Program-made: the position numbers and the translations under genes
Source of the DNA: Candidatus Rokuibacteriota bacterium
Lineage (GTDB): Bacteria > Methylomirabilota > Methylomirabilia > Rokubacteriales > CSP1-6
Direction of reading: 5' to 3'
Assembly (NCBI GenBank): GCA_016200085.1
Contig: JACQFL010000028.1
Coordinates: 62,001 to 126,000, forward strand
Length of the DNA: 64,000 bases
Notes under the pieces: generated by a model
The model's database searches: none
What the model was told of the DNA's origin: nothing
Seen by the model: the letters and a program-made list of their open reading frames with translations, nothing else
Shown here: piece after piece, positions 7,589-59,346 of the stretch
How positions within the stretch are numbered: the stretch's first letter is position 1
How the letters are laid out: every line of letters begins with the position of its first letter

Positions 7589-10500
7589 CTAGGCCCGCCG
7601 GCCCAGCGTCTCTTCGAAGAGGCCGCGGACTTCGTCGACGCCGAGCGGCTTGGTCAGCACCGGCCGGCCCGTGCGCGCGAGAAATGCCCGGGTGTCGCCG
7701 TCCAGCGCATCCCCGGTCATGAACACCACCCGCGCGGCCGTCCGGGGCTGGCGCTCGACGATCCAGGCCCACACGTCCTGGCCGCTGATGTCGGGCAGCC
7801 GGAGATCGAGCGCGACCAGATCGTAGGCCGCGCGCTCCAGGCACCCGATCGCTTCCAGCCCCGTGGCCGCGGCGGCCGCGGCGTGCCCCAGCCCCTCCAC
7901 GATCTCCGCGAGCAGCCCGCGCAGCCCGCTCTCGCTGTCCACCACGAGCACCCGCGCCGTGCCGGGGCGCCCCGCCGGAGGGCCGGCGGCGGGCTGCGCC
8001 ACGGCAGCGAGGGCGTCGGCGGCGGGCTCCGCCACCGCGCCGAGCGGCAGGCGTACGGTGAGCCGGGCCCCGCGCGCGGGCAGGGTCTCGGCCTTCATCC
8101 GCCCGCCGTGCGACTCGACGATCCCCAGCGCGAGGCTGAGCCCGAGCCCGGTTCCCTCGCCCACGCCCTTCGTCGTGAAGAATGGGTCGAAGACGCGGCC
8201 GAGGTGCTCGGGCGGAATCCCCGGGCCCTCGTCGTCGATCTGGGCCACGAGCTCCTCGCCGTCGCGGAAGACGCGCGCGGTCAGCGTGCCGCGCCCGCGC
8301 GCGCCGGCCATCGCGTGGCTCGCGTTGGCGACGAGGTTGACGAAGACCTGCTCGAGCTGCTGCGGGTCCGCGGCGATCGGGGGCAGCTCCGGCTCGACCT
8401 CGCGCACGACACGGATGCGCTGCCGCTCGAGCTCGGCGGCGTGCAGGTCGACGGCGCCGCCCACGACGGCCCCGAGGTCGATCATGCGGCGGACGGGTGG
8501 CTGGCGGCGGGAGAAGACCAGCAGGTCGCGGATGATCTTCGACGCCCGCCGGCACTCCGCTTCGACGGCGCGCAGGCGATGGAGCACGGCGGGCGGGAGC
8601 TCGGAGCGCTGGAGCAGCAGCTGGGCGGACATGAGGATGGTCGAGAGCGGGTTGTTCATCTCGTGGGCCATCCCCGAGAGCAGCGTGCCGAGGGCCGTGA
8701 GCTTGTCGGCCTGGATCAGCTGCGCCTGGGTTTCCTTCAGGGTGCGCAGATTCGCCTGCAGCTCGCCGTAGAGGCGCACCCGGTCGAGCGCGAGCGCGAC
8801 CTGCTGGGCCACCGTCGCCAGCACCCGCGTGTCCTCCTCGTCCAGCCGGTGCCGCTGGCGGTAGTGGGCGACGAGGACGCCGACGGGATCGTCGCGCACG
8901 CCGAGCGGCATCGCGAGCGCCGAGACCACCCCGTGCTCGGCCAGGTAGGCGGCGAAGGCGAAGCGGCGGTCGAGGGTGACGTCTTCGGCGTAGACCCACT
9001 CCCGGCGCGCGAAGGCGAAGCCGGCCACCGACTGGTTGGCCGTGAGGGTGACGGCGCCCACCACGCCGGGTCGCCAGCCGCTGCCGGCCACCAGCCGCAA
9101 CCTGCCGTCCGGCTCGGCGAGGAAGAGCCCGACGTCGTCCGCGCCGACCAGCGGGCCGGTGACCCCGACGGCCTCGTCGAGGAGCTTGCCTTCGTCGGTC
9201 GCCTCGAGCAGCCGCCGACAGAAATCCTGGAGCAGCTCATCGTGCCGCGCGCGGACGGCCAGACGGTCGAACGCCCGGCCATTCTCGATCGCCGCCGCGG
9301 CGAGCGCGCCGTAGGCGGCCAGCCGCTTGACTTCGGCCGCGGCGAAGCTGCGGGACGCCTCGAAGGAGACCTCGAGGGCGCCGAAGATCTCACCGGCCTT
9401 GATGCGCAGGGGCACCGCCAGCGCCGCGACGTAGCCCTGGCGCCCCGCGTGCTCACGCAGGCTCGTGGCCAGCGTGATGCGCGCGTCGTCGTGGATGTCC
9501 GGCGACCACACCGCGCGTCCCTTGGCGAGGGCCAGGCCCGCAACCCCCTGGCCCACCGGTCCGCCGAGGGCGGCGGCGAGCCGCTCGGCCATGCGCCCGG
9601 CGTGGCTGATCGCTCGCAGCGTGCGGGTGTCGGGATCGAGGCGGAAGAGCACGGCGCCGTCGGCGCCCGCGACCTCGAGCGCGCGCGTCGCGATGGCCTG
9701 GGCCACCGCGCCCAGATCGAGGGGACCCACGAGGGCGGCGCCCGCCGCGTGCAGGGCTTCGAGGTCCCGCTGGCGCGCGCGGGCCTGCTGGTAGAGCCAG
9801 ACCTGCTCGCGGATCACGGTGACGAAGATCACCGCGACGCCGAGCGGCTGCGCCAGGATGGCCAGGTACCACGGCACGCCGTACCGGTCGGGGCTCATGA
9901 GGAAGCCCGTGAGCCCGAGGATCCACAGGAATGCCGCGACGAAGAGCGCGCCCGCGAAGCGGTCCTCCCGGGCCCGCCGGTAGCGCCCGCGCGCCGCCCA
10001 CAGCGCCCACACCGACACGAGACCGTTCAGCACCGCGCCGGCCTCGATGGCCACCGGGCTCAGTCGTCCGTCTCCCGGCAGGACCAGCGGCGGCAACGTG
10101 CGCCACAGGGCGAGCACGGCGCCGGCCACGGTCGCGGCCGTCGCCACGATGACGGCCGCCATCGCGGCCCGGTCGCGATCCGTCAGCCGGTACGCACGAT
10201 CGCCCGCCCGGGCGGCGAGGGCGACCGCGGCGAAGCTCGCAAGATAGCTCAGCAGCAGGAAGTACGGGCTGACCGACGAGTCGAACCCGGGACCGGTGGG
10301 GTAGTCGGGCCGCGTCGCGATGTGCGCCATGGAGAGCAAGCCCGCCAGCCCGAGGACGGCGCCGAGGGCGGCCGAGCGCCGGTCGTTGCGGACCCGATGG
10401 CGCTCCAGGCAGGCGTACCCGATCACGAAGGCGAGCACGACGAACGGCGCGCCGAGGACGGGCACGGCGTAGGGCATCACGAGCCACGGCCCGTCGAGCC

Positions 10501-10621
10501 ACCGGGTGGCGAGCAGGACCACGAGGTACGCCAGGCCGAAGGCGAGGAGGGCCGCCAGCAGGAGCGCGAAGCCGACACCCGGCGTGCGGCGGGCCACCCC
10601 CGAGCCCTGGACGGTGGGCAT
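7589..10621 (-). CDS. hybrid sensor histidine kinase (TM region, two GAF domains, HisKA/HATPase, receiver)
   Basis: MAHEMNNPLSTIL H-box, GTGLGLSLALGIVESHGG G-box, C-terminal receiver (LVALDLRLPDISG); start uncertain. Confidence 0.9.
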   Translation of the reverse strand: MPTVQGSGVARRTPGVGFALLLAALLAFGLAYLVVLLATRWLDGPWLVMPYAVPVLGAPFVVLAFVIGYACLERHRVRNDRRSAALGAVLGLAGLLSMAHIATRPDYPTGPGFDSSVSPYFLLLSYLASFAAVALAARAGDRAYRLTDRDRAAMAAVIVATAATVAGAVLALWRTLPPLVLPGDGRLSPVAIEAGAVLNGLVSVWALWAARGRYRRAREDRFAGALFVAAFLWILGLTGFLMSPDRYGVPWYLAILAQPLGVAVIFVTVIREQVWLYQQARARQRDLEALHAAGAALVGPLDLGAVAQAIATRALEVAGADGAVLFRLDPDTRTLRAISHAGRMAERLAAALGGPVGQGVAGLALAKGRAVWSPDIHDDARITLATSLREHAGRQGYVAALAVPLRIKAGEIFGALEVSFEASRSFAAAEVKRLAAYGALAAAAIENGRAFDRLAVRARHDELLQDFCRRLLEATDEGKLLDEAVGVTGPLVGADDVGLFLAEPDGRLRLVAGSGWRPGVVGAVTLTANQSVAGFAFARREWVYAEDVTLDRRFAFAAYLAEHGVVSALAMPLGVRDDPVGVLVAHYRQRHRLDEEDTRVLATVAQQVALALDRVRLYGELQANLRTLKETQAQLIQADKLTALGTLLSGMAHEMNNPLSTILMSAQLLLQRSELPPAVLHRLRAVEAECRRASKIIRDLLVFSRRQPPVRRMIDLGAVVGGAVDLHAAELERQRIRVVREVEPELPPIAADPQQLEQVFVNLVANASHAMAGARGRGTLTARVFRDGEELVAQIDDEGPGIPPEHLGRVFDPFFTTKGVGEGTGLGLSLALGIVESHGGRMKAETLPARGARLTVRLPLGAVAEPAADALAAVAQPAAGPPAGRPGTARVLVVDSESGLRGLLAEIVEGLGHAAAAAATGLEAIGCLERAAYDLVALDLRLPDISGQDVWAWIVERQPRTAARVVFMTGDALDGDTRAFLARTGRPVLTKPLGVDEVRGLFEETLGRRA

Positions 10622-10750
10622 GCGCACTCCCCTTCCGCTGGCTGGCGTGACGGCCCCCCCGAGCGACGCGTCGGCCGGGCCCAGACCATAACACCGGGCG
10701 GGAGTGGACGCCATCTCCGGCCTGGAAGCCGGCCGGGGAACGCCGGTCGG

Positions 10751-11674
10751 TTACCTCCCGGGTCTCCGCCTGGTCGGCTCGGGTGGTTTCGGCGGCTCGG
10801 CGGGCGGCACCACGCTCCGGATCGGCGGCAGCGATTTCAGGTAGGCGACGAGCGCGCGCATGTCCCGGTCGGCGATCCTGCCCGCGTAGTACGGCCAGGG
10901 CATCGGCGCCCGTTCCGGCGAGCCGTCGCGCCGCAGGCCATTGATGCCGGCCACGATCTGGTCCGTCGTCCATTCCCCGAGGCCGGTCTCGCGATCGGTC
11001 GTGAGGTTGGCGCTGTACGTCACGCCCCAGGGCCCGGTGAACTTCCGACCCCCGGCGAAGAGCCGCCGCGCGTCGTCGCGCCGGCCGCCTGGGCCGGGCG
11101 GGGTGTGGCACTCCACGCAGTGGGCGATGGGGCCAGCGAGATAGGCGCCGTACTGGAGGATCTCCTGCGGCGGATCGGGCACCGACGTCACGGGTGGCCC
11201 CCACGATGGAGGCAGGGGCATCGTGTACCGGCTCTTCGCCACGCGGTTGCGCACCGGCTTCACCGACCTCAGATAGGCGACGATGGCGGTGACGTCGGTG
11301 TCGGAGAGCTGGCGATAGAGCTCGAAGGGCATCGGCGGCCCGAGTGTGCGCCCGCTCTTCGACTTGCCCTCGCGGATGGCGCGGACGATCTCGGCGTCCC
11401 TCCAGCCGCCGATCCCGGTCGTCCGATCGGGCGTGATGTTCGACGCGATCGCGGTCCCGAACTCCTCGGTGATGCTCCCTCCGCCCGCGAGGTGCTTGCC
11501 CGGCAGGTCCCCCGCCGGCCCCTTGGGGGTGTGGCAGTTCCCGCACGCGGCCAGGACCTCCACGAGATAGCGGCCGCGCTCGACGGGAGGCTCCGCCGCG
11601 GGCGCCGCGGGCGCGGCCAGGGCGAGCGTCACGAGCGCGGCGGCGAGCGCGGGCCCCAGGTTCCTCGTCGGCAT
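10751..11674 (-). CDS. exported diheme c-type cytochrome
   Basis: CGNCH and CVECH heme motifs, signal peptide. Confidence 0.85.
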   Translation of the reverse strand: MPTRNLGPALAAALVTLALAAPAAPAAEPPVERGRYLVEVLAACGNCHTPKGPAGDLPGKHLAGGGSITEEFGTAIASNITPDRTTGIGGWRDAEIVRAIREGKSKSGRTLGPPMPFELYRQLSDTDVTAIVAYLRSVKPVRNRVAKSRYTMPLPPSWGPPVTSVPDPPQEILQYGAYLAGPIAHCVECHTPPGPGGRRDDARRLFAGGRKFTGPWGVTYSANLTTDRETGLGEWTTDQIVAGINGLRRDGSPERAPMPWPYYAGRIADRDMRALVAYLKSLPPIRSVVPPAEPPKPPEPTRRRPGR

Positions 11675-20908: not shown

Positions 20909-22912
20909 TCACATCAGGCCCATCCAGCGCCAGAGCGGGACGCTGGCGAGCAGGGCGACCAGCGTGGCGATCGCGAAGGCCAGCGCACCCCGCCGGGCCT
21001 GCCGGTGGGTGAAGATGTGCGGCTCGGCGCCGTGATAGAGCGCCAGGTACTGCGTGTTCTGGTACGGCGTCAGGAACGTGCTACACGCCATCAGGGTCGT
21101 CATCGCCACCACCCACGGATCGATGCCCGCCGCCCGGGCGAACGGCATCATGGCCAGCACGAGCAGCGGCGCCGCGGCCTGCCAGCGCAGCACCAGCGTG
21201 ACGCCGACGGACAGGATCGCCAGCGCTCCGACGAAGAGGAGCGGCGTGTGGGCGAGCGGGCCCGCGATCCCCTTCACCATCGCCGTGAGCCAGCGGTCGA
21301 GGCCGGTCGTCTCGAAGACTCGCGCCATGCTGGCCAGGATCCCGAAGAGCAGCAGGAAGTCCCAGTCGATCGCCCGGAACACCTTCTTCTGGAGCACGCC
21401 GGCCACGCCCAGCACCCCGAGCGCAAGCGCGGCCAGCCATGCGGGATCGATCCCGTGCCACGGCTGGCTGGCGAAGCCGGCGAGCAGCACGATCGTCACC
21501 GCGAGCGTGACCTTCTCGCCCGGCGACGGACGGCCAAGCAGCGCCTGCTGGACGGCGAGGCGTTCGCGACGGTCGGTGCGGCTCGGGCGCGGGGCCGTGG
21601 CGGACGGCCGGTACAGCCACAGCAGCGCGACCAGGAAGGTCGCGAGGAGGATCGCGGTGGTCGGCGCCGCCCGCAGGCCCCACACCGTCCACGTGAGGCT
21701 CGCCCGCGTGGTCTCGGGCATGAGCGCGTAGACGAGCAGGGTCGTGCTCGAGCTCGTGAGGAAGGCGGCGACGGTCTGGCCGAAGCCGACGAGCACGGCC
21801 ATGGCCAGCCCCGTGGCCGCGCGCGTGCCGAGCCGATAGCCGAGCGCCTCGATCAGCTCGCCGACCGCGGGAGCGAGGAGGGCGACGCGGCCGGTGGCGT
21901 TGGGCATGGCGGGCCCGATCAGCACCCCGGCGAGACAGAGCGCGATGGCCTGGCCCGCGTACGTCCCCGGCACGCGCCGCACCGACCAGAGCGCGAAGCG
22001 GTAGAGCAAGCCCGAGGCGCTGACCGCGGCGCCCACGGCGAGCGTCGCCACCTGGAGCGCCCACGCCGTGGAGGTGAAGCCGCTGACCGCAACCGCCGGC
22101 AGGGTCACGCCGCCGATCACCCAGATCGACGCCAGGGTCAACGCCACCACGCCGTCGGGCAGCGCCTCGAACGCCAGGACGGCGACGAGGGCGACCAGGG
22201 TCCAGAGCGCGTGCCAGCCGCGGACCGGCAGGTCGGCGGGCGACGGCGTGAGCCAGCCCGCGGCGAGAGCGGCGGCGGCGAGCGCGACGCCGATCAGGGG
22301 ACGCCACGTGATGGCGACGCGCCGGGCCCGCCGCCTCGGAAGCTCGACGGCGGTCGCGTCGATGCGAAGCGCGGTGCGCGCCGGCTCGCTCTCCGCCAGC
22401 GCGCCGGCCTGGTGCGCAGCGAGCACCAAGCGGTTGGCCGCGGCGAGCCGGCGGCTCACGGTGGCGGCCATCGCGAGCACGACCGTCGGATCGTCGCCCA
22501 CCAGATCGAGAAAGCGCGCCCGCTCCAGGCGCACCGCCTCGACGGGGCCCTCGGCGCGTACGGTCGCCGAGCGCGGCTCGCCGGTCAGCAGGGCCATCTC
22601 GCCGATGGGATCGCCCGCGCGGGCCGTCGCGAGCCGCAGCGCGCCCGCCCCGTCCGTGCCCTGCTTGAAGACCCCGAGCTGGCCCCGCACGACGACGTAC
22701 AGCGCGTCGCCCGGGTCGTCCTGGCGGCAGAGCACCCCGCCGTCCTGGAACCGACACAGCTCGAGGTGCGCGGCAAGGCGGGCCAGGCGGAGACGATCGA
22801 GCCCGCTGAAGAGGTCCACCCGGGCCAGCAGCGCCGCGTAGTCCGCGGCGGAGAGGGCGGAGGGCGTGGGGACGGCAGCGGGCTCGCCCGGTCCGCCCGG
22901 TTCGATCGGCAT
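20909..22912 (-). CDS. SLC13/CitT-type permease with N-terminal cyclic nucleotide-binding domain
   Basis: cNMP domain (DALYVVVRGQLGVFKQG..GDPIGEMALLTGEPRSATVRA) followed by ~12 TM segments. Confidence 0.85.
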   Translation of the reverse strand: MPIEPGGPGEPAAVPTPSALSAADYAALLARVDLFSGLDRLRLARLAAHLELCRFQDGGVLCRQDDPGDALYVVVRGQLGVFKQGTDGAGALRLATARAGDPIGEMALLTGEPRSATVRAEGPVEAVRLERARFLDLVGDDPTVVLAMAATVSRRLAAANRLVLAAHQAGALAESEPARTALRIDATAVELPRRRARRVAITWRPLIGVALAAAALAAGWLTPSPADLPVRGWHALWTLVALVAVLAFEALPDGVVALTLASIWVIGGVTLPAVAVSGFTSTAWALQVATLAVGAAVSASGLLYRFALWSVRRVPGTYAGQAIALCLAGVLIGPAMPNATGRVALLAPAVGELIEALGYRLGTRAATGLAMAVLVGFGQTVAAFLTSSSTTLLVYALMPETTRASLTWTVWGLRAAPTTAILLATFLVALLWLYRPSATAPRPSRTDRRERLAVQQALLGRPSPGEKVTLAVTIVLLAGFASQPWHGIDPAWLAALALGVLGVAGVLQKKVFRAIDWDFLLLFGILASMARVFETTGLDRWLTAMVKGIAGPLAHTPLLFVGALAILSVGVTLVLRWQAAAPLLVLAMMPFARAAGIDPWVVAMTTLMACSTFLTPYQNTQYLALYHGAEPHIFTHRQARRGALAFAIATLVALLASVPLWRWMGLM

Positions 22913-32914: not shown

Positions 32915-34927
32915 TCAGCCGCGCGGGCGGTCGTGCTCCGGGTGCCCGGTCGCCCCGGGCGCCGGGCTCGCCGCGCGCGGCGGGGCCGTCCCCGAGTGAC
33001 GCTCGACCCCCGCCCCGCCCGGCGCGAGGCGATTCGCCGGCTCGCCGGGGAGCCCGCGGACGCCCGCGTGCGGAGGCTCCGGGCGCGGGCCGGATGCCAT
33101 GGACGGACCGGGAACGCGCTGCGGCGTGGGTGGGGTCCAGCTCGCGGGCGGACCAGGCACGTCCCGTGGAGCGGCCGGGGCGCCCGCGTGCCCGCGATCG
33201 ACGCCCGCAGGCGCCTCACGCGCCGGGCTCCGCTCGCGGCCCGACGGCATCTCGGGTGCGAGCCCGCGGTTCTGCGCCGGGGGCGTCATCGCCTCGCGAG
33301 GCACGACGTCCGCGCGCAGGGGCGCGGGCACGGCCGCGGGCCGCGGCGTCGCTTCGACGTGTGGCGGGGCTGGACGTGGCGCGCGCTCCACGCCGCTCGG
33401 ACCGAGAGGCTGCTGCGGCGGCGCCGCGTTCGCTGACGGTGCGCGCGGCGCCGGAACGCTCCGCGCCGACGAAGTCGTGACCGGCGCGACGATGACCGGC
33501 GCGGTCGCGATCGCAGGGGCGGCCATCGCCGGGATCGGGCGTGCGGACTCTACCGGCCGTGCGGCGGGACGCGCCGCCGGCCGCGTCGCCACCACCGGCG
33601 GCGAGAGCGCGGCGGCGGTCGGGCGTGCGGCACGGCCAGTGGCGGCGACGAAGCTCGCGGGCTCGGGTGTCACGGGTAGCCGTCCGTGCACGGGCTCGAG
33701 CCGGTGCACGTCCACCCGGCTCATGCGCGCCTCGTGCACCGAGCGCGAGGCGAACTGCTCGCCACGCATGGCGACCACGGCGTGGCTGACCGGCACATTC
33801 GTGTAGCTGCTGACCGGGGTGCGAGGGCCGCCCCAGCCGCCCCACCACGGTCGACCGACCACGGTGGCGGAGCCCCACCACGGCCGCACGGGCTCCCCCC
33901 ATCCCAGGGCGACCCAGCTGACCACGGGGGCGTCGATGGTCGGCGTCCCGAAGAACGCCACCAGCGCGGGCGCGTAGGCGGGGCGGATCACGCGCGGGCC
34001 CGGCGCCCACCCCCAGAATCCGTCGACGAACACCCAGCGGCCGTAGTGGAACGGTGCCCAGCCCCACGGCGCCGCGTCCACCCACGTCCAGCCGTAGAAG
34101 GGATCCCAGATCCACTTGCCCGTGCTGTACGGAGCCCAGTCACCCGGCATGGCCCGGGGGACCCAGACCGAGCCGTAGGTCGGCATGGCACGCCAGGCGC
34201 CGTGCTGATCGAGATCGCTGACACCGTAGACGTCCGCCGACACGTAGCGGGCGCTCGTGGCCTCGAGCAGGTGAGCGGTGCGGGCATCGTTCCACCGATC
34301 CCACACGTCCGGCTCCGGAGCGGCGTAGGTCTCCACCCCCGGGGCGCCGGCGTCGAGCACGACGTCCTCGCTCGCCGCGATCGCGAGCGCTTGCCCTGAC
34401 GCCGTGGTGAGAGTCGCCTGCCCGCCACGCCGGGTGATGAACGAGGTCCGCCCGGAAATCACGTCCGCGCGGTAGTAGCCCGAGCGCGTCACCGTGAAGG
34501 CGCCCGACGGGGTGTCGATCTCGATGGTCCTCCCGGCATCGACCGCGCGCAGATCGAGGGCGGCGTGACCGCTGGTGAGCGTGAGCTGGAGGGAGCGGGC
34601 ATCGTCGTTGGCGAGCGCGATCTGCGTGTCGCCCCACGCGCGCACGAACGCGCGCGCGCCGACCTGGAGCTCGACGTTGCCGTCGTGACCCGTCGAGAGC
34701 GCGTCGCCGGGAGCGAGCGGCGTGTTGAGCTGGGCCGGCGACCAGTCCCCGGCCCCCGGCCGCCAGAACGACGCACCACCCGCGACGTAGCTGAGCCGGG
34801 GCGGCGTCGGTCCGCCCAGGCCGGCGGGATCGGGCGTCGGCGCCTGGGCCAGCGCGCCGGTCGCGGTCGCCGCCAGCAGGGCCACGGCGGCGAGCAGGAT
34901 CGTCGAGCGCTTCGTACAACTGACCAT
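32915..34927 (-). CDS. exported FecR-domain / DUF6600-like protein with long Pro/Ala-rich C-terminus
   Basis: signal peptide, FecR-like domain, repeated W/G/Y-rich (YGSVWVPR.., WGWAPFHYGRW) region. Confidence 0.8.
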   Translation of the reverse strand: MVSCTKRSTILLAAVALLAATATGALAQAPTPDPAGLGGPTPPRLSYVAGGASFWRPGAGDWSPAQLNTPLAPGDALSTGHDGNVELQVGARAFVRAWGDTQIALANDDARSLQLTLTSGHAALDLRAVDAGRTIEIDTPSGAFTVTRSGYYRADVISGRTSFITRRGGQATLTTASGQALAIAASEDVVLDAGAPGVETYAAPEPDVWDRWNDARTAHLLEATSARYVSADVYGVSDLDQHGAWRAMPTYGSVWVPRAMPGDWAPYSTGKWIWDPFYGWTWVDAAPWGWAPFHYGRWVFVDGFWGWAPGPRVIRPAYAPALVAFFGTPTIDAPVVSWVALGWGEPVRPWWGSATVVGRPWWGGWGGPRTPVSSYTNVPVSHAVVAMRGEQFASRSVHEARMSRVDVHRLEPVHGRLPVTPEPASFVAATGRAARPTAAALSPPVVATRPAARPAARPVESARPIPAMAAPAIATAPVIVAPVTTSSARSVPAPRAPSANAAPPQQPLGPSGVERAPRPAPPHVEATPRPAAVPAPLRADVVPREAMTPPAQNRGLAPEMPSGRERSPAREAPAGVDRGHAGAPAAPRDVPGPPASWTPPTPQRVPGPSMASGPRPEPPHAGVRGLPGEPANRLAPGGAGVERHSGTAPPRAASPAPGATGHPEHDRPRG

Positions 34928-35025
34928 CTCGAGCCCCCCGTCCGGTCTACCCACGGTCTGGGTGTGTGACGAAGCGAGGGACGCTCGGATTCGACGCGGG
35001 AGCGGATTCGACGCGGGGCGGAGAC

Positions 35026-38466: not shown

Positions 38467-39762
38467 CTACGGGACGCGCCGGAGGGTCAACCGCGCGTGC
38501 GGGACGTTGGCCTTCGTCCCGGAGATGACGTCACCGAGACTGCCCTCGAGACGATAGCGCTCCGTCGAAAACCCGCCGTTCCAGACGAGCACGAGTTGCC
38601 CGTCCTTGACGGACCACGAGTTCGGGCCACGCGCGCCGGTGGGTTTGAAAGTGCCAGGCCCGTCGTAGCTGAAGCCGAACGCCCCATCGCCATCGAGACG
38701 CACCCACGCCGTCTGCGTCACGGCGCAGCCGTCGCAGGTCCACCGCCACACGGTGTTCGTGAGCGCCTGCGCCAGTGCGCGCGCACCGGGCTCGTCCGGC
38801 GAAGTCCGCAGGGCCTGCAGGCGCTGCCGCTCCTCGGCCAGCCGGCGCCGCTCCTCAGCGATTCTCTGTTGCTCGGCCAGCGCGGCTCGCTCGGCGTCGA
38901 GGCGGCGACGCTCCTCCTCGAGCCGCACCCGCTCCTCTTGCAGCGCTGACGACCGCGCGGACCCCGGGCGGGCGGGCAAGCTGAAAATGAAGTCGCCGTA
39001 GACGGAGGACGCGATCCATGGCTGCTGTTCGCCCTTTGTCAGCCCGACCACGGCGCCGCCCACCTGCTTGAACACGCCTTCCAGGGTCACGTTCGGCGTG
39101 CGCATCGCCTTGAGCAGCTCGGTCGTGTAGAGGCTGTTTGACCCGGTCCCGTCGCTGGCGACGCGGCCGGGCGCCGTGGCATAGGCGATGAAGGTGCCGG
39201 TGGGAGCGTTCATCTGGGCCAGGCCGCCCCCGGCGGTGCTGCGCGACCACGATCGTTCGAACGGGTTGTTCCGGCACGCGTCGAGCACGAGGATGTTCAA
39301 GCGGTTGTTACCGCTCTCCATCTTGCTCAGCACCCGGCCCACGTCGACCGCCTGGTACTCGGTGTCGGTCTCGACCGCGAGCCGGGCGTCCACCGGCACC
39401 AGGTAGTTGCGCCCGCGGACCTGCAGGCCGTGGCCGGAGAAGTAGAAGAGGCCGACGCCGCTTCCGCGCAGCCTGTCACCGAAAGCCTCGATGGCCCGCA
39501 GCATGTCGGGCCACGCGAGATTTTCGTGTTGGAGCACTTCGAAGTTGAGGGCCTTCAGGGTTGTGGCCATTGCGCGCGAGTCATTGAGGGGGTTCTTGAG
39601 CGCCGCCGTCGGATACGCGGCATTGCCGATGACGAGAGCCACCCGGCGCTCAGTCCGCATCTGCTCGACGACGATCTCCTTCGACTGGCCGGGCGCGAGC
39701 GTGCCTGTGGCCAGGAGGACGCATCCGACGACGACGGCGACGGTTCGCGGCCGGGCCAGCAT
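38467..39762 (-). CDS. exported caspase-family (peptidase C14-like) protein with coiled-coil linker
   Basis: VALVIGNAAYP; YFSGHGLQVRG (His); LDACRNNPFE (Cys); signal peptide. Confidence 0.88.
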   Translation of the reverse strand: MLARPRTVAVVVGCVLLATGTLAPGQSKEIVVEQMRTERRVALVIGNAAYPTAALKNPLNDSRAMATTLKALNFEVLQHENLAWPDMLRAIEAFGDRLRGSGVGLFYFSGHGLQVRGRNYLVPVDARLAVETDTEYQAVDVGRVLSKMESGNNRLNILVLDACRNNPFERSWSRSTAGGGLAQMNAPTGTFIAYATAPGRVASDGTGSNSLYTTELLKAMRTPNVTLEGVFKQVGGAVVGLTKGEQQPWIASSVYGDFIFSLPARPGSARSSALQEERVRLEEERRRLDAERAALAEQQRIAEERRRLAEERQRLQALRTSPDEPGARALAQALTNTVWRWTCDGCAVTQTAWVRLDGDGAFGFSYDGPGTFKPTGARGPNSWSVKDGQLVLVWNGGFSTERYRLEGSLGDVISGTKANVPHARLTLRRVP

Positions 39763-39869
39763 CGCGCTCTCCTCTTCGGAAGAAGGGACGAACCGCGAGA
39801 AGTGTCGGGCGGGCGGAGGCGTAATGTCAAGCTGCTCGTCGAAGCCGCCGGCCTTGCTCCTGGGTCGGT

Positions 39870-39910
39870 GACGTGGTGGACTAGGCGGAGTTCTGATTCG
39901 CCACCACGTC
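39870..39910. promoter_or_regulatory. perfect 10-bp inverted repeat GACGTGGTGG-N21-CCACCACGTC in divergent intergenic region
   Basis: direct reading. Confidence 0.5.
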
Positions 39911-39931
39911 TCATCTCGAGGGAGACAGCGC

Positions 39932-40219
39932 ATGCTGGGAGTCGTCGCCACGCTGAAGGTCAAGCCGGGGATGGAGAGCCAGTTCGAGGCCGTGGCCAAG
40001 GAGCTCGTCGCCAAGGTCAACGCCAACGAGCCGGGGTGCACGCTCTATGCGCTGCACCACGGCGAGGCGCCCGCCACGTACGTGTTCATGGAGCGCTACG
40101 CGGACCAGGCGGCGGTGGACGCCCACCGCGCCACCGAGTACTTCAAGGCGCTCGGGCGCAAGATGGGCGAGTACATGGACGGCCGGCCGGAAGTCCTCCG
40201 GCTCCGGGAAGTGGAGTAG
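39932..40219 (+). CDS. putative quinol monooxygenase (ABM domain)
   Basis: LKVKPGMESQFEAVAKELV..NEPGCTLYALHH. Confidence 0.88.
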   Translation: MLGVVATLKVKPGMESQFEAVAKELVAKVNANEPGCTLYALHHGEAPATYVFMERYADQAAVDAHRATEYFKALGRKMGEYMDGRPEVLRLREVE

Positions 40220-52355: not shown

Positions 52356-53345
52356 ATGATCGACGTCATCGCCGGCGACGTCACCATCGGCGGCTTCACC
52401 AGCCCGCTGCTCAGCTGGCTCGGGTCCGCCGCCCTCCTCGCGTTCTTCGGCTGGCAGGTCGCCCGGCTGTTCGCCGACGTCCTCCGCGTCTCCGCCCCGT
52501 ACCTCCAGCTGGAGCCCGTGCTGGCGCCCCTCGCCGAGGAGATCGAGTCGACCGACCTGGGGCGGGCCGTGCGGCGCGCGTTCTCCGACGGGCGCGAGGC
52601 GGCGCCCGCCACGACGGTGAGCGCGGGCGTCACCGACATCGACCGGCTCACCGCGCTCGACCAGGCGATGCGCGAGGCCGGCGCGTTCCGGCGCCCCTGG
52701 GTGCAGTTCCGCAAGACCCTCCTGATCGAGCACGTGCCGTGGACCAGCGAGCCGCGGATCTTCAGCACCCGCCGTGCCGAGGACTTCTTCACCGAGGACG
52801 CGGTCCTGGGCGGCGCGATCGACCTCGCCTTCTACCGTCAGCTGCCCTCGCTGATCACCGGCTTCGGCCTGCTGTTGACCTTCGTCGCCATCTGCACGGG
52901 GCTCGGGCGGCTGCACGCCGACGGCGAGACCGTGAAAGGCATCCAGGGCCTGATCAACGGTCTGGCGGGCAAGTTCCTGACGTCGATCATCGGCCTGGTG
53001 TGCGCGAACGTCTTCGTCCTGGTGGAGCGCCCTGCCGTCCGCCGGCTGCTCGGCCTGCACGAGGAGCTCGTGACCCTGCTCGACGAGTCCTTCCCCCGCC
53101 GGACCGCCGAGGACCTGCTCGACGCCCTCGCCCGCCAGCGCAGCGCCCACGAGGCCGTCGCGCGCGCGGCCCGCGGGGAGGACGGCGAGCCGGGACCGCC
53201 CGCGCCCCAGACGCGGCTGGACGAGTCCATCGAGGCGCTCACGTCGGCGGTTCACGCGCTGGCCGAGCAGGTCGCGGCGGCGGGCGCGGACCGCGAGGTC
53301 GTCGTCCCGCTCGCGCCGCGGCAGCGGAGCCGCCGGCTTGGCTGA
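52356..53345 (+). CDS. ZorA-like MotA/TolQ/ExbB-type membrane protein
   Basis: TM segment near N-terminus; FFTEDAVLGGAIDLAFYRQLPSLITGFGLLLTFVAICTGL and second TM pair LTSIIGLVCANVFVLVERPAVRRL resemble ZorA/MotA channel subunits. Confidence 0.7.
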   Translation: MIDVIAGDVTIGGFTSPLLSWLGSAALLAFFGWQVARLFADVLRVSAPYLQLEPVLAPLAEEIESTDLGRAVRRAFSDGREAAPATTVSAGVTDIDRLTALDQAMREAGAFRRPWVQFRKTLLIEHVPWTSEPRIFSTRRAEDFFTEDAVLGGAIDLAFYRQLPSLITGFGLLLTFVAICTGLGRLHADGETVKGIQGLINGLAGKFLTSIIGLVCANVFVLVERPAVRRLLGLHEELVTLLDESFPRRTAEDLLDALARQRSAHEAVARAARGEDGEPGPPAPQTRLDESIEALTSAVHALAEQVAAAGADREVVVPLAPRQRSRRLG

Positions 53346-53997
53346 TCGCCGCCTCGCGGCCGAGAGCGACGCGCGCAGCGTCGCCCTCGGCGTCACCGAC
53401 CTCATGACCTCCCTGGCCGTGATCTTCGTGCTCCTGCTCGTCGTCTTCGTGGGCGCCTCGCGCCCTGCCGCGAGCCGCGTCGACCCGCGCGCGCCGGTGG
53501 GCGTCGCCGACGTCCGCGCCGCGCTCGGGCGGTCCTCGCCCGACGGGGTCGGGCTCGAGCAGGATCCCCGGGACCCGCACGTGCTCCGGGTGCTGATCCC
53601 GGAGGCCCTGCTGACGTTCGAGTTCGCCCGCAGCACCCTCGCCCCCGCGGGCGAGCGCTTTCTCGCCCGCGTGATGCCGGCCTACGCCACGGTGCTCTGC
53701 GGCGATCTGGCCGACCGCGTCGCGGGGATCGTGATCGAGGGCCACACCGACGACCTCGGCGACGACGCGCTCAACTTCCGCCTGAGCCAGGACCGGTCGT
53801 TCCGGGTTCTCGTGCGGGGCCTCGACGCCATCCGTGTCTCCGCGCCCGAGGCCCACGACTGCTTCGCGGCGCTCGCCTCGGCGAGCGGGCGCGGCAAGCA
53901 CGACCTCGTGTACGACGGCGCCCGCCGGCCCGACCGCGCGCTGAGCCGCCGCGTCGTCCTCAAGATCCTGCTCCGCGAGCCCCCCGAGCGCTCCTGA
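53338..53997 (+). CDS. ZorB-like (MotB/OmpA-type) stator protein
   Basis: TM with Asp: VTDLMTSLAVIFVLLLVVFV; OmpA-type GIVIEGHTDDLGDDALNFRLSQDRSFRVL; TTG start overlapping upstream stop. Confidence 0.75.
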   Translation: MADRRLAAESDARSVALGVTDLMTSLAVIFVLLLVVFVGASRPAASRVDPRAPVGVADVRAALGRSSPDGVGLEQDPRDPHVLRVLIPEALLTFEFARSTLAPAGERFLARVMPAYATVLCGDLADRVAGIVIEGHTDDLGDDALNFRLSQDRSFRVLVRGLDAIRVSAPEAHDCFAALASASGRGKHDLVYDGARRPDRALSRRVVLKILLREPPERS

Positions 53998-54053
53998 GGT
54001 CCTGACCCGGCGCGCATTGCGCCGAGGGCTGGCATTCATGTGATGATCGGGAC

Positions 54054-56534
54054 GTGACACCGGGGCGCCTGATCGCCGCCGCGCTGGCCGGGGCGGTGCT
54101 CGTCGCCGTGCACGCCTGGCCCGCGGATGCGCAGGGTCCGGGCGGCGGACGCGGCCCGGGCATGGGTCGCCGGCCGCCACCTCCCCGGGGCGAGCGTGAG
54201 CCGCCCCCCGCGCCGGTCGAGGAATCCCCGCCCGGGCGCTACCCGTTCGAGTTCGACAAGATTCTCGAGGTCGTCAACCGGGGCGAGGGCCGCCAGGCGC
54301 TGGCCTGGTACGAGGAGACGGTCGCCGAGGCCGTGCAGCAGGGTGATCGTCTGCGCGCGGCCCGCGCGAGCTTCGGCGTCGCGGTGGTCGCCCTGCGCGT
54401 GGGACTGTTCCAGAAGGCGATCCAGGCGGGCCAGAAGGCCGTCGAGATCTTCAAGGCGTCGGACACCCTCGGTCCCGCCGACGCGGGGCGCTGGTCCTCC
54501 ACGTACATCCAGCTCGGCGCCGCCTACCGTCACGTCGGTGACCTCGCGCAGGCGCGCAAGACGCTCGAGGAAGCCCTCACGTTCGCGGAGAGCCACTTCC
54601 GGGGACGGCGCGAGATGGTCAACGTCGGCATGATCCTGATCGCGCTCGCGAGGGTCGCCAACGCCCAGCAGGACTACCAGGCGGCCCGGGAGCGGGCCAC
54701 CCAGGCCGCGGAGTTCTTCGAGAAGGCCGCCGCCAACATGCCGCCCAGCGCCCCCGAGCGCGCGCGCACCGCGATCCGCCGCCACGCGGCGACCGCGCTG
54801 GCCGAGATGGGTCGCGCGGAGCTCGGCCTCGGCCGGCGTGACGAGGCCGAGGCGGCCTTCGACCGCGCGCTGAAGTTCGCGCGCCTGGTGGGCCTGCGCG
54901 AGGCCGAGCTCGAGATCGTGCAGGCCCAGGCCACCCTCGCGGTCGCGCGGCAGGACTGGGCCAAGGCGGAAGCGCTCTACCGGCAGGGCCTCGCGCTCGC
55001 CGGCGAGATCAAGCAGCCGGGCGCGCTCATGTGGCTCAACCAGGGGCTCGCCCGAGCGCTCAAGGAGCTCGGACGCCCCGACGAGGCGTTCCCCGCCGCG
55101 CGCGAAGCGGTGCGCCACGTCGAGGAGGTCCGCGCCGAGCTCGGCGAGTCCGGGCTGCGGAGCCAGTTCCTCGAGGACAAGCAACGGATCTATCAGCTGG
55201 CCATTCGCCTGGCCCTGGACATCAAGAAGCCCGACGAGGCGTTCGCGCTGGTCGAGCGCAGCCGGGCCCGCGCCTTCCTCGACATCCTCGGCAACCAGAC
55301 CACGGTGTCCAAGGGCCGCACGCGCGCGCTCGTCGAGGAAGAGGTGCGCCTCCGGGCGCGGCTGGGCGAAGCCCGGGCCACCGTGCAGGAATCCGACGAT
55401 GACGCGGAATCGGCGAAAGCCCGGGCGCGCGTCGACGCGCTCGACCGCGATTACCGGGCCTTTCTCGACCGCGTCCGCAAGGAGAACGTCGAGCAAGCGT
55501 CGCTCATGACGGTCGAGCCCGTGACCCTCTCGGAGATCCAGGCCCTCCTGCCGGAGGGCACGACCCTGCTCGAATACCTGGTCGGTGACAACGACGTGGT
55601 CGTGTGGGCCATCGATCGTCACGGCGTCAAGGTCGCGAAGATCGACGGCGATCGCCCGTCGCTCGTCGGCATGGTCCGCGGGCTCCGCGCCGCGATCGCC
55701 AGCCAGGCGTCCCTCGACGACGTCCAGCGACGAGCCGCTGGACTGCACGCCCGCCTGCTCGGCGCCTTGCGCCGCGAGCTCGGCGGCGGCCGGCGCCTGC
55801 TCATCGTGCCGCACGGCGTGCTGCACTACCTTCCGTTCGCCGCCCTGCGCTCCCCGGGCGGGCGCTGGCTCGTGGATGACTTCGCCATCGCGACGCTGCC
55901 GAGCGCCAGCGTGCTGCGATATCTCACCGACAAGGGCGTGAACACTTCCGGCCGCACGCTCGCCGTCGGCAACCCCGACGTGGGCGCCGGGCTGGCGCTG
56001 CGCTGGGCCGAGCGCGAGGCGCGGATGGTGGGCCAGCGCGAGCCCGGCGCGACGGTGCTCGTGCGCGCCGACGCCACCGAGGCCCAGGTCAAGAAGCTCG
56101 CGGAGGGCGCCGGTCTGCTGCACTTCGCCACCCACGGCGAGCTGAGCGAGACCGATCCCCTGTCCTCGGCCCTGCTGCTCGTGCCGGGCGGCGGCGAGGA
56201 CGGCCGGCTCGAGGTGCGCGAGCTGTTCGGGCTCGACCTGCACGCCCGGCTGGTGGTCCTCTCCGCGTGCCAGACGGGGCTCGGCAAGATCTCCAGCGGT
56301 GACGAGATCGTGGGGCTGCAGCGCGCGTTCCTCTACGCCGGCACGCCCGCCGTGGTGACGACGCTGTGGAAGGTGGACGACCGGGCCAGCTACGAGCTGA
56401 TCCGGGCCTTCTACGACCGCCTCGCGCAGGCCGGCGCGATGGAGGCACTGCGCCAGGCGCAGATCGAGACGATGCGCGCGTTTCCTCATCCCTACGCCTG
56501 GGCCGCGTTCGGCCTGACCGGCGCGCCGCGCTGA
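54054..56534 (+). CDS. exported TPR + CHAT domain (caspase-fold) protein
   Basis: signal peptide; TPR array; LHFATHGELSETDPLSSALLL (His) and VVLSACQTGLGKISSGDEIVGLQRAFLYAGTPAVVTTLWKVDD (Cys). Confidence 0.92.
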   Translation: MTPGRLIAAALAGAVLVAVHAWPADAQGPGGGRGPGMGRRPPPPRGEREPPPAPVEESPPGRYPFEFDKILEVVNRGEGRQALAWYEETVAEAVQQGDRLRAARASFGVAVVALRVGLFQKAIQAGQKAVEIFKASDTLGPADAGRWSSTYIQLGAAYRHVGDLAQARKTLEEALTFAESHFRGRREMVNVGMILIALARVANAQQDYQAARERATQAAEFFEKAAANMPPSAPERARTAIRRHAATALAEMGRAELGLGRRDEAEAAFDRALKFARLVGLREAELEIVQAQATLAVARQDWAKAEALYRQGLALAGEIKQPGALMWLNQGLARALKELGRPDEAFPAAREAVRHVEEVRAELGESGLRSQFLEDKQRIYQLAIRLALDIKKPDEAFALVERSRARAFLDILGNQTTVSKGRTRALVEEEVRLRARLGEARATVQESDDDAESAKARARVDALDRDYRAFLDRVRKENVEQASLMTVEPVTLSEIQALLPEGTTLLEYLVGDNDVVVWAIDRHGVKVAKIDGDRPSLVGMVRGLRAAIASQASLDDVQRRAAGLHARLLGALRRELGGGRRLLIVPHGVLHYLPFAALRSPGGRWLVDDFAIATLPSASVLRYLTDKGVNTSGRTLAVGNPDVGAGLALRWAEREARMVGQREPGATVLVRADATEAQVKKLAEGAGLLHFATHGELSETDPLSSALLLVPGGGEDGRLEVRELFGLDLHARLVVLSACQTGLGKISSGDEIVGLQRAFLYAGTPAVVTTLWKVDDRASYELIRAFYDRLAQAGAMEALRQAQIETMRAFPHPYAWAAFGLTGAPR

Positions 56535-58375
56535 AGCTGACGCTGCCTCTCAGCCCGGCCGCACGCCGCCTCGCGCGGGCGCTCGTGCTGGGGATCGCGA
56601 TGAGCATCGGCGTCACCATCCTCTCGCGCGTGGGCGTGCTCGCGGGCTGGGAGACGCGCGCGGTCGACACGTTTCTCTTCTTCCGCGATCGCCGGCCAGC
56701 GCCGGAGATCGCCCTGGTCACGATCGACGAGGACACCTTCGCGAGCCTGGGCGAGCGCCAGCCCCTGCCCCGGGCCTATCTGGCGGAGCTGGCGGACTTC
56801 CTGCTGAGGAGCGGCGCCCGCGTGGTCGCCTTCGACCTGATCGTGCGGACCCCGACGGAGTCCGCCGCCGACGCCGCGCTCATCCGGGTCTCCCGGCGCG
56901 CCGGCGACCGCCTGGTGTTCGCCGCGGTCGCCCGTCCGGTGCAGGGCGAGGAGCGCTACGAGATGAGCGGCGCATTCTCTCCCGCCCTGCGCGCGCGGCT
57001 GGGCTTCGCGAACACCCCGCTGGGCAGCGACGGCATCATCCGCCGGATGGCCCCCGTCCTGGCGGACGCCCACGGCGGCTTCCTGCCGTCGCTCGCGCTG
57101 GTCACGGTGGCGGCCTGGGATGGAGCACTGCCGGCCCTGGACGCCGCGCTGCGGGCCGGCGGCCACGACACGCTGGCGCTCCCGGTCCGCGGGGACGACG
57201 GCCGCATCACCCGGGCGCCGGTCACGCGGGCGGCGCTCGCCGAGCGGCCCTGGCGCGTGGACTTCGCGGGGCCGCCGGGCACGTTCGTCGCGTTCCCGAG
57301 CCTGCCGCTCGTGCAGATGGCCCGCAGCGGCGTCGAGCCTCCGGCCGACAACCCGTTCCGGGACCGCCTCGTCCTGGTGGGCGCGACCTTCGCCGAGAGC
57401 CGCGATTTCTACCCCACGCCGGTCGGGCTCATGGCGGGCGTCGAGATCCAGGCTCACATGATCAACACGGTGCTGACCCGTCGCCTCACCGCGCCGCCCC
57501 ACTGGGCCGTCAACCTGGCTCTCCTGGCCGTGGTCTGCGTGGTCATCGCCGTGCTGGCGCTCTGGCTCTCGACGCTGTGGCTCACCGTGGCGTCCGCCGG
57601 GATCGTCGGCGGGCTGGCGGTCGCGAGCTACGCGGTGTACGTGCGCGGCGGGTACTGGCTCGACTTCGTCGCCCCGCTGGCGGCGATGCGGGTCTACTTC
57701 CAGGTCTCGAAGCTGGTGGCCCGGCGCCGCCTCCGCGCGGCCTTCGGCCAGTACACGAGCCCCGAGGTGCTCGAGCGCGTGGTCCGCGAGGGCAGCCAGC
57801 TCGGCGGCGAGGTGCGCACGGTCTCCGTGCTGATGTCCGACGTGCGCGGCTTCACCACGCTCTCGGAGGGGCGGCCGCCGGCCGAGGTGTCGGCGATCAT
57901 GAACGAGTACTTCACGGCCATGGTCGATGTCATCATGGGCCAGCAGGGCATGGTGAGCGACTTCATCGGCGACGGCATCCTCGCGATCTTCGGCGCGCCC
58001 CTCGACGACCCCGAGCACGCCTGGCATGCGGTGCAGACCGCGCTCGGCATGCAGGCGGCCACCGCGCGGCTCAACGAGGGCTGGACGGCGGCGGGCCGGC
58101 CCTCGCTGGCGATGGGAGTCGCCGTGAACACGGGCGACGTGTTCGCCGGCAACCTCGGGTCGCCGCGCAAGAAGAAGTACGGCGCGATCGGCGACACCGT
58201 GAACACCACGGCGCGCATGGAGGGCCTGAACCGCGAGCTGGGCACGGGCATCCTGATCTCCGCGGCGACGCTGGCGCTGGTGAAGGACCGCGTGGTGGCC
58301 CGCGACCGCGGCGAGGTCCAGGTCAAGGGCAAGGCGGAAGCAGTCGCGATCTTCGAGCTGGAGGGTCTTCGATGA
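56531..58375 (+). CDS. CHASE2-domain class III adenylate/guanylate cyclase
   Basis: CHASE2 pattern (ALVTIDEDTF...GARVVAFDLIV), 3 TM, cyclase VLMSDVRGFTTLSEG..FIGDGILAIFGAP..YGAIGDTVNTTARMEG; start uncertain (CTG overlap or ATG 56600). Confidence 0.88.
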   Translation: MKLTLPLSPAARRLARALVLGIAMSIGVTILSRVGVLAGWETRAVDTFLFFRDRRPAPEIALVTIDEDTFASLGERQPLPRAYLAELADFLLRSGARVVAFDLIVRTPTESAADAALIRVSRRAGDRLVFAAVARPVQGEERYEMSGAFSPALRARLGFANTPLGSDGIIRRMAPVLADAHGGFLPSLALVTVAAWDGALPALDAALRAGGHDTLALPVRGDDGRITRAPVTRAALAERPWRVDFAGPPGTFVAFPSLPLVQMARSGVEPPADNPFRDRLVLVGATFAESRDFYPTPVGLMAGVEIQAHMINTVLTRRLTAPPHWAVNLALLAVVCVVIAVLALWLSTLWLTVASAGIVGGLAVASYAVYVRGGYWLDFVAPLAAMRVYFQVSKLVARRRLRAAFGQYTSPEVLERVVREGSQLGGEVRTVSVLMSDVRGFTTLSEGRPPAEVSAIMNEYFTAMVDVIMGQQGMVSDFIGDGILAIFGAPLDDPEHAWHAVQTALGMQAATARLNEGWTAAGRPSLAMGVAVNTGDVFAGNLGSPRKKKYGAIGDTVNTTARMEGLNRELGTGILISAATLALVKDRVVARDRGEVQVKGKAEAVAIFELEGLR

Positions 58376-59346
58376 CGGGCTGGCGGTGGAGGACTCGGGC
58401 GGCGGCGATGGCGCTCGCGATCGGGGCCCTGTTGGGATCTCCCGGCGCAGCGGGAGCGCAGGGTGCCGAGACGGCGGGGATGCTCACGGAGATCAAGGTG
58501 GGGCGTGGCCGCGTGGAGATGAAGACGGGCGGCGCCGACTGGCGGCCGGCCACGCCGCTCAGCGCGCTGCGCGCCGGCGATCAGGTGCGCGCCAGCGGCG
58601 ACGCCATCGCGGTGGTCCTGCTCACCGGGGGTCGCGGCACGGTGAAGGTCGACACGGCCGCCTCGCCCTACACGGTGGCGGCGCCATCTGGTGACGGCAA
58701 GGTCGACAAGGCCAAGAGCCTGCTCACGTCCAGCCTCGGCTTCCTGTCGGCGGGCAGCAAGGAGCCGCCGAAGGCGGTGCTGTCCACCCGCGCGGCCACC
58801 CGGCCCCCCGAGGTCCTCACCCCTCGGAACGGACCGGTCCTGCCCGACTCGCTCGTGTTCGAGTGGCAGGGCAGCCAGTTCTCGCGCTACACCGTGCGCA
58901 TCGTCGATCCTTCCGGGGTGGTCCTCGAGCGCAAGGGCGTGGTGGGCGCGCGCTTCCCCTACCCGGCCGACGCGCCCGTGCTCAAGCCCGCCGTGCGCTA
59001 CCGGTTCCAGGTGGAGGCGCTGAACCATCCTGCGTACGAGACGTGGTTCGAGGTCGTCGATCCCGGACGGGCCGCGGCGGTGCGCCAGAGCCTGGAGCAG
59101 CTCGAGGCCTCGCTCGGGCCGGGCGTGTCGCCGAACTCGCTCGCCGCCGTGAGGATCGGGGCGCTCGCCGCCGACGGCTACCTGCACGACGCGCGGCTGC
59201 TCGCCCTGGCCGCGCTCGCGCGCGATCCCGACGAGCCGGCCCTGCACATGCTGCTCGGCAACGTGTACCTCAAGACGGGCCTGCCGCGGCTCGCCGCGGA
59301 GTCACTCGACGAGGCCCAGTTCCTCCTGTCCCGCGGGGGCAAGTAA
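58372..59346 (+). CDS. exported FecR-domain protein
   Basis: ATGA overlap with cyclase stop; signal peptide; FecR-like domain; C-terminal TPR-like helices. Confidence 0.82.
   Translation: MTGWRWRTRAAAMALAIGALLGSPGAAGAQGAETAGMLTEIKVGRGRVEMKTGGADWRPATPLSALRAGDQVRASGDAIAVVLLTGGRGTVKVDTAASPYTVAAPSGDGKVDKAKSLLTSSLGFLSAGSKEPPKAVLSTRAATRPPEVLTPRNGPVLPDSLVFEWQGSQFSRYTVRIVDPSGVVLERKGVVGARFPYPADAPVLKPAVRYRFQVEALNHPAYETWFEVVDPGRAAAVRQSLEQLEASLGPGVSPNSLAAVRIGALAADGYLHDARLLALAALARDPDEPALHMLLGNVYLKTGLPRLAAESLDEAQFLLSRGGK

Follow-up and report, generated by a model that had tools for sequence, protein, structure and literature searches.

The five genes studied here, which lie together on one strand of the window (the whole 64,000-nucleotide stretch that was analysed, part of contig C51 of a 3.57 Mb genome in 57 contigs, whose relatives suggest a Rokubacteria-like member of Methylomirabilota), are probably best read as an envelope-signalling operon that is conserved and, added upstream of it in one lineage, a ZorAB-like motor without a tail. 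Two elements of this reading are well supported, namely that genes A and B are a ZorAB-like pair lacking the ZorA tail, and, through its conservation, that the genes for a CHAT protease, a CHASE2 cyclase and gene 5 make up a three-gene module. What unites the two is a single junction, seen in a single genome. That ZorAB feeds the three-gene module, or is functionally coupled to it, is doubtful.

Layout of the locus

The five frames are all present, in the order and on the strand given by a preliminary description of this DNA (Table 1). The overlap of A and B that it reported is of 8 bp, its 56 bp between B and CHAT is exact, and the ATGA overlap of the cyclase and gene 5 is formed by the gene 5 start at 58372 and the cyclase end at 58375. 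It also had the CHAT and cyclase genes abutting or overlapping, which depends on the choice of start codon. No ATG, GTG or TTG start for the cyclase is found from the CHAT stop to 56585. The CTG at 56531, which would generate a CTGA overlap, is the likeliest start.

Table 1. Genes and junction of the locus, in positions of the window
Feature	Position	Strand	Remarks
Gene A, ZorA-like motor subunit, tailless	52356..53345	+	329 aa
Gene B, ZorB-like subunit	53338..53997	+	219 aa, TTG start
B-CHAT gap, 56 bp	53998..54053	+	junction found in the window genome only
TPR-CHAT peptidase	54054..56534	+	826 aa, GTG start
CHASE2 class III nucleotide cyclase	56531..58375	+	CTG start at 56531 inferred
Gene 5, N terminus resembling a signal peptide, TPR-like in the C half	58372..59346	+	no FecR profile match

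The coding signal of A and B is strong, with GC3 of 0.98 and 0.96, respectively, against a GC2 of 0.50. The composition shift of the pair is slight and not diagnostic (GC 0.75–0.76, with about 0.69–0.75 around it). At the B/CHAT junction, promoter and terminator signals did not exceed what chance would give, and the same-strand spacing there is compatible with one transcript. Other neighbouring proteins are an S8 protease, an EthD protein and an SDR. The window also encodes, on the minus strand, a DUF6600 protein (32918–34954) and a caspase-domain protein (38470–40041).

A ZorAB-like pair without the ZorA tail

The likeness of A and B to ZorA and ZorB, proposed in the preliminary description, is seen alike in the PADLOC profiles, phmmer, the tree and Foldseek. 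A matches the PADLOC profile ZorA1 at 2.2e-23 and B matches ZorB1 at 2.3e-30, and A matches ZorA of the PDB by phmmer at 1.9e-8. In the Foldseek search with the model of A, ZorA entries (6.5e-9) are the sole matches at E<=0.001, and the entry that follows them, TolQ, has an E value of 0.017. The NCBIfam curated cut-offs are missed, the best ZorA score being 57.4 bits against 100 and that for ZorB1 18.2 against 400. In the AlphaFold model of A (pLDDT 64.5, from a five-sequence alignment), the cytoplasmic portion contains two beta strands. Extra cytoplasmic beta structure is described as a trait of Zorya (PMC12505986). B has an OmpA-like peptidoglycan-binding domain (OmpA 3e-6, Pfam), and its invariant residues are D21, which is Asp21 of the transmembrane helix, N146, L149, S150 and R153.

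Grouping of the pair with ordinary stators was checked and is not found. A has no match in Pfam, including MotA_ExbB, and the only MotA_ExbB locus genome-wide is on another contig and encodes a protein that groups with E. coli TolQ and not with A. In the tree, E. coli MotA, TolQ and ExbB and the host TolQ are on one side (98/93). A is among the ZorA-like proteins on a long branch, in a sampling that used A as the query and therefore favours ZorA. The identification of A as a stator of the MotAB, TolQR or ExbBD kind was rejected on the profile, the tree and the poor Foldseek value of TolQ.

Close relatives of A are absent from the IMG/VR and GTDB contigs. A two-sequence ZorA alignment as query found four full-length ZorAs only. 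In plasmids, ZorA gave distant matches only, whose neighbours were ZorC/ZorD-like where full-length regions were opened, and ZorB gave two weak matches.

A continues for about 59 residues past the head, compared with about 380–550 in ZorA proteins accompanied by ZorC/D. The absence of the tail was missing from the preliminary description. PMC11890865, in which deletion of residues 237–696 of the type I ZorA was tested, reports that the structured ZorA tail matters for defence, and Zorya I defence requires it. Neither ZorC, ZorD, ZorE nor another effector gene was found alongside A and B with Pfam and PADLOC. With no tail and no ZorC/D/E, the locus is not a member of Zorya, and from its sequence the pair would not be expected to defend in the manner of Zorya. 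The type I ZorAB (PDB 8qyd, 8vvn; PMC11890865) shares with the window pair the fold of the ZorA head, the A-B gene order, and a ZorB with a transmembrane Asp and a peptidoglycan-binding domain, but the window pair is without the cytoplasmic tail, ZorC/ZorD and defence partners.

Two other intact tailless pairs were found, both without defence partners and in envelope-related neighbourhoods. The pair at L098 (324 + 249 aa, 8166–9914) has a GNAT acetyltransferase on one side and pilin/O-antigen-ligase-like genes on the other. The pair at L100 (277 + 247 aa, 8580–10153) is beside dTDP-rhamnose genes, and its B protein has diverged too far to be matched by the ZorB profile. In the tree, L088, which is the same gene as L098, nests within full-length ZorAs, and A and L100 are placed elsewhere. 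It therefore seems that the tail was lost on more than one occasion, although the place of A is uncertain. A further candidate, L219 (G807; 8475–10921), was not counted as tailless because its tail was found downstream in another frame. Here zorA is split by a frame change in an otherwise ZorABCD-like locus, so that either the gene is broken or the sequence contains an error.

Other ZorA-like genes have unusual sizes or neighbours. Genomes G100, G104, G108 and similar (e.g. L195, L201, L202) have two or three ZorA-like frames each, and many of the frames in this group are giant-tailed at 1000–4600 aa. At L099:6986–12549 (G279), a ParA-like gene, a ZorA-like gene (426 aa), a gene for a 230-aa protein, YcjX (DUF463) and a further gene lie in a row.

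The CHAT-cyclase-gene 5 module

The CHAT peptidase of the preliminary description has a Pfam match of 1.2e-69 and carries both motifs of the His/Cys dyad, HFATHG and LSACQTG, aligned with those of its relatives. Its TPR array is also matched and its N terminus, read by eye, is signal-peptide-like. The CHAT part matches NCBIfam NF041237 (Csx29) at 6.8e-14, which is below the cut-off. Csx29 and other TPR-CHAT proteases share the TPR and CHAT peptidase combination; Csx29 is CRISPR-associated, whereas the window CHAT, with its signal-peptide-like N terminus, is encoded next to a cyclase. The description of the next gene as a CHASE2 nucleotide cyclase is likewise confirmed, with both domains matched in Pfam (CHASE2 7.7e-43, Guanylate_cyc 1.9e-21) and conservation of the two metal Asp motifs (SDVRGF, FIGDG). 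At the position where ATP cyclases carry Lys, an Asp is found in 15 of 15 aligned sequences. A protein elsewhere in the window (20912–22912, minus strand), a cyclic-nucleotide-binding domain fused to a sodium:sulfate symporter, is a candidate target for a cyclic nucleotide.

The label of 'FecR protein' for gene 5 is not borne out by the profile. Pfam FecR (PF04773) has no match in the window, in eight homologues, or genome-wide at E up to 10. Gene 5 belongs to a conserved family, homologues of which have weak DUF928 matches (best 0.004, below the cut-off). The N half of its single-sequence structure model is poor.

CHAT, cyclase and gene 5 occur together in four loci of relatives (L044, L150, L151 and L154), and CHAT precedes the cyclase in these and in L149, which is cut by a contig end. 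In L042 (G007; 1505–2380), CHAT is reduced to its last 50 residues before the cyclase, fused behind an unrelated frame. Nearly all of the relatives' cyclase loci that were read have the cyclase and gene 5 adjacent; the exceptions among close relatives are L043 and the contig-cut L149. More distant CHAT-cyclase pairs are found at L161–L163. The window's own genome has a second CHASE2 cyclase with a gene 5 homologue and no ZorAB (L051, C50:8084–15670); CHAT is matched weakly at a distance of about 5 kb. CHAT genes can be in tandem, with three in G006 (L152) and two in G027 (L150).

The profiles used for co-occurrence recover the window's genes and the genes of relatives. With these, neither ZorA nor ZorB was found in the CHAT/cyclase loci of relatives, and ZorA is absent by sequence from 59 relatives. 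Among 95 phylum genomes, the ZorA profile covers a head in the window only, other phylum genomes having four weak ZorA matches at tail positions (317–560) only. Likewise, there is no CHAT or CHASE2 in the flanks of about 100 further distinct ZorA-like loci, almost all of them in genomes and plasmids of Pseudomonadota, these flanks being usually about 7 kb per side and shorter at contig ends. The survey in depth covers one phylum and Pseudomonadota. Within it the conserved co-occurrence of all five families, whose absence the preliminary description named as refuting its system, fails, with ZorA in 0 other of the 95 phylum genomes, and no linkage to CHAT or CHASE2 is seen at the other ZorA-like loci. 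Of the envelope module in the preliminary description, what stands is CHAT, the CHASE2 cyclase and gene 5, conserved together; ZorAB as a member of it lacks support.

The position of CHASE2 beside an exported accessory protein is already known from the BiofilmReg operon of Burkholderiales (PMC5192318), and is shared with the window. BiofilmReg has a LysM-FecR protein, a CHASE2 histidine kinase and a response regulator, whereas in the window CHAT stands with a CHASE2 cyclase and with a TPR protein that the FecR profile does not match. The CyaD1/CyaD2/CyaK cyclases of Sinorhizobium meliloti with NsrA (PMC13001267) are also CHASE2 class III cyclases with an envelope partner. The partner that they need is an outer-membrane beta-barrel, however, and no CHAT protease or TPR gene is described with them (PMC13001267).

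ZorAB beside cyclases and the probable function of the locus

ZorAB genes are found beside other class III cyclases. Four Burkholderiales loci, L243, L247, L250 and L253 (G1097, G1012, G978 and G1175), form a coherent family of ZorA, ZorB and ZorC-like genes with an FHA-class III cyclase. Their ZorA heads are 59–65% identical to one another and 31–44% identical to the canonical ZorAs compared, and their FHA-cyclases have 50–66% mutual identity. Each has a ZorC-like gene (EH_Signature by Pfam in L243 and L247), three of the four have a Ser/Thr kinase (L243, L250 and L253), and the FHA-cyclase is about 80–170 bp from ZorA, divergent in three of the four. ZorD was not found in the fetched stretches, that of L250 ending just after ZorC. 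As in the window, a ZorAB-type motor is beside a class III cyclase with no ZorD seen, but these loci differ in having a full-length ZorA with its tail, a cyclase of the FHA type and no CHAT. In the alphaproteobacterial L232:724–10236 (G526), a CheA-like gene, a GAF-PAS-class III cyclase, ZorA (507 aa), ZorB and EH_Signature are in a row on a single strand, with the cyclase about 50 bp upstream of ZorA.

These five loci mean that the window is not alone in having ZorAB next to a class III cyclase, although the cyclases near ZorAB elsewhere are of the FHA or GAF-PAS types, without CHASE2. Cyclases are common in such genomes, so a few such neighbours are expected by chance. The four Burkholderiales loci are notable for their conserved arrangement. 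No paper on Zorya with an FHA-domain cyclase was found in a literature search that had most subscription journals outside it. The Burkholderiales ZorABC with FHA-cyclase may possibly be a signalling version of Zorya. It can be suggested, tentatively, that the window pair, the Burkholderiales FHA loci and L232 represent a non-defence branch of ZorAB wired to cyclic-nucleotide signalling, a ZorD helicase having been seen at none of them.

In the preferred reading, that of an operon and a motor joined to it, the first unit encodes a probably exported TPR-CHAT protease, a class III cyclase of the inner membrane with a CHASE2 domain, and a TPR protein whose location is probably periplasmic. The families, catalytic motifs and conserved linkage of this unit are observed. 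It most likely senses the state of the envelope. The CHAT protease and/or gene 5 would target the periplasmic CHASE2 domain, by acting on it or by binding it, and a cytoplasmic cyclic nucleotide would then be altered by the cyclase; the export (from signal peptides seen by eye), the direction of signalling and the nucleotide are presumed here. The second unit, tailless ZorA/ZorB, is most likely a 5:2 rotary motor, driven by ions and anchored to peptidoglycan. Its homology to ZorAB and its conserved transmembrane Asp are directly seen, and motor activity would be in keeping with them. The joining of this second unit upstream of the first would have occurred in this lineage only.

Other explanations are less favoured by these data. 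It is unlikely that ZorAB, CHAT, the CHASE2 cyclase and gene 5 form a five-part system, acting as one envelope sensor in which the motor supplies or senses peptidoglycan force. The tight same-strand packing would fit this, as would the prediction that all parts except A and the cyclase domain face the periplasm and the presence of ZorAB beside other class III cyclases in the four Burkholderiales loci and L232. However, the parts do not co-occur in relatives or in the about 100 other ZorA-like loci, and no CHASE2 is present in the other ZorAB-adjacent cyclases. Improbable, too, is that A and B are what is left of a full Zorya locus in decay, its ZorA tail and effector genes lost. Against such decay, the A and B frames are intact and overlapping, Asp21 and the OmpA-like motif are kept, coding composition is strong and other intact tailless pairs exist at L098 and L100, even though ZorC/D/E are missing and L219 has a broken zorA whose tail is in a different frame. 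An anti-phage system, whether a variant of Zorya or a cyclase system like Pycsar with CHAT as its effector, is very unlikely. PADLOC profiles for ZorA, ZorB and PycC do match, but the PycC match (1.8e-18) spans the shared cyclase domain only and no Pycsar effector profile matches any of the five proteins. In addition, A is without the ZorA tail, the N termini of CHAT and gene 5 are signal-peptide-like, and among ten upstream proteins scanned the sole defence match is a caspase-domain protein about 12 kb off.

Defence calls made from ZorA/ZorB profile matches alone would miscall the window locus. The CHAT-CHASE2 cyclase-TPR operon is apparently an undescribed route from a probably periplasmic caspase-fold protease to a cyclic-nucleotide output; no paper naming the CHAT domain and CHASE2 together was found, most subscription journals being outside the search. 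If the tailless ZorAB conducts ions and binds peptidoglycan, then the ZorA tail would be a detachable part, and the motor could serve beyond DNA-targeting defence.
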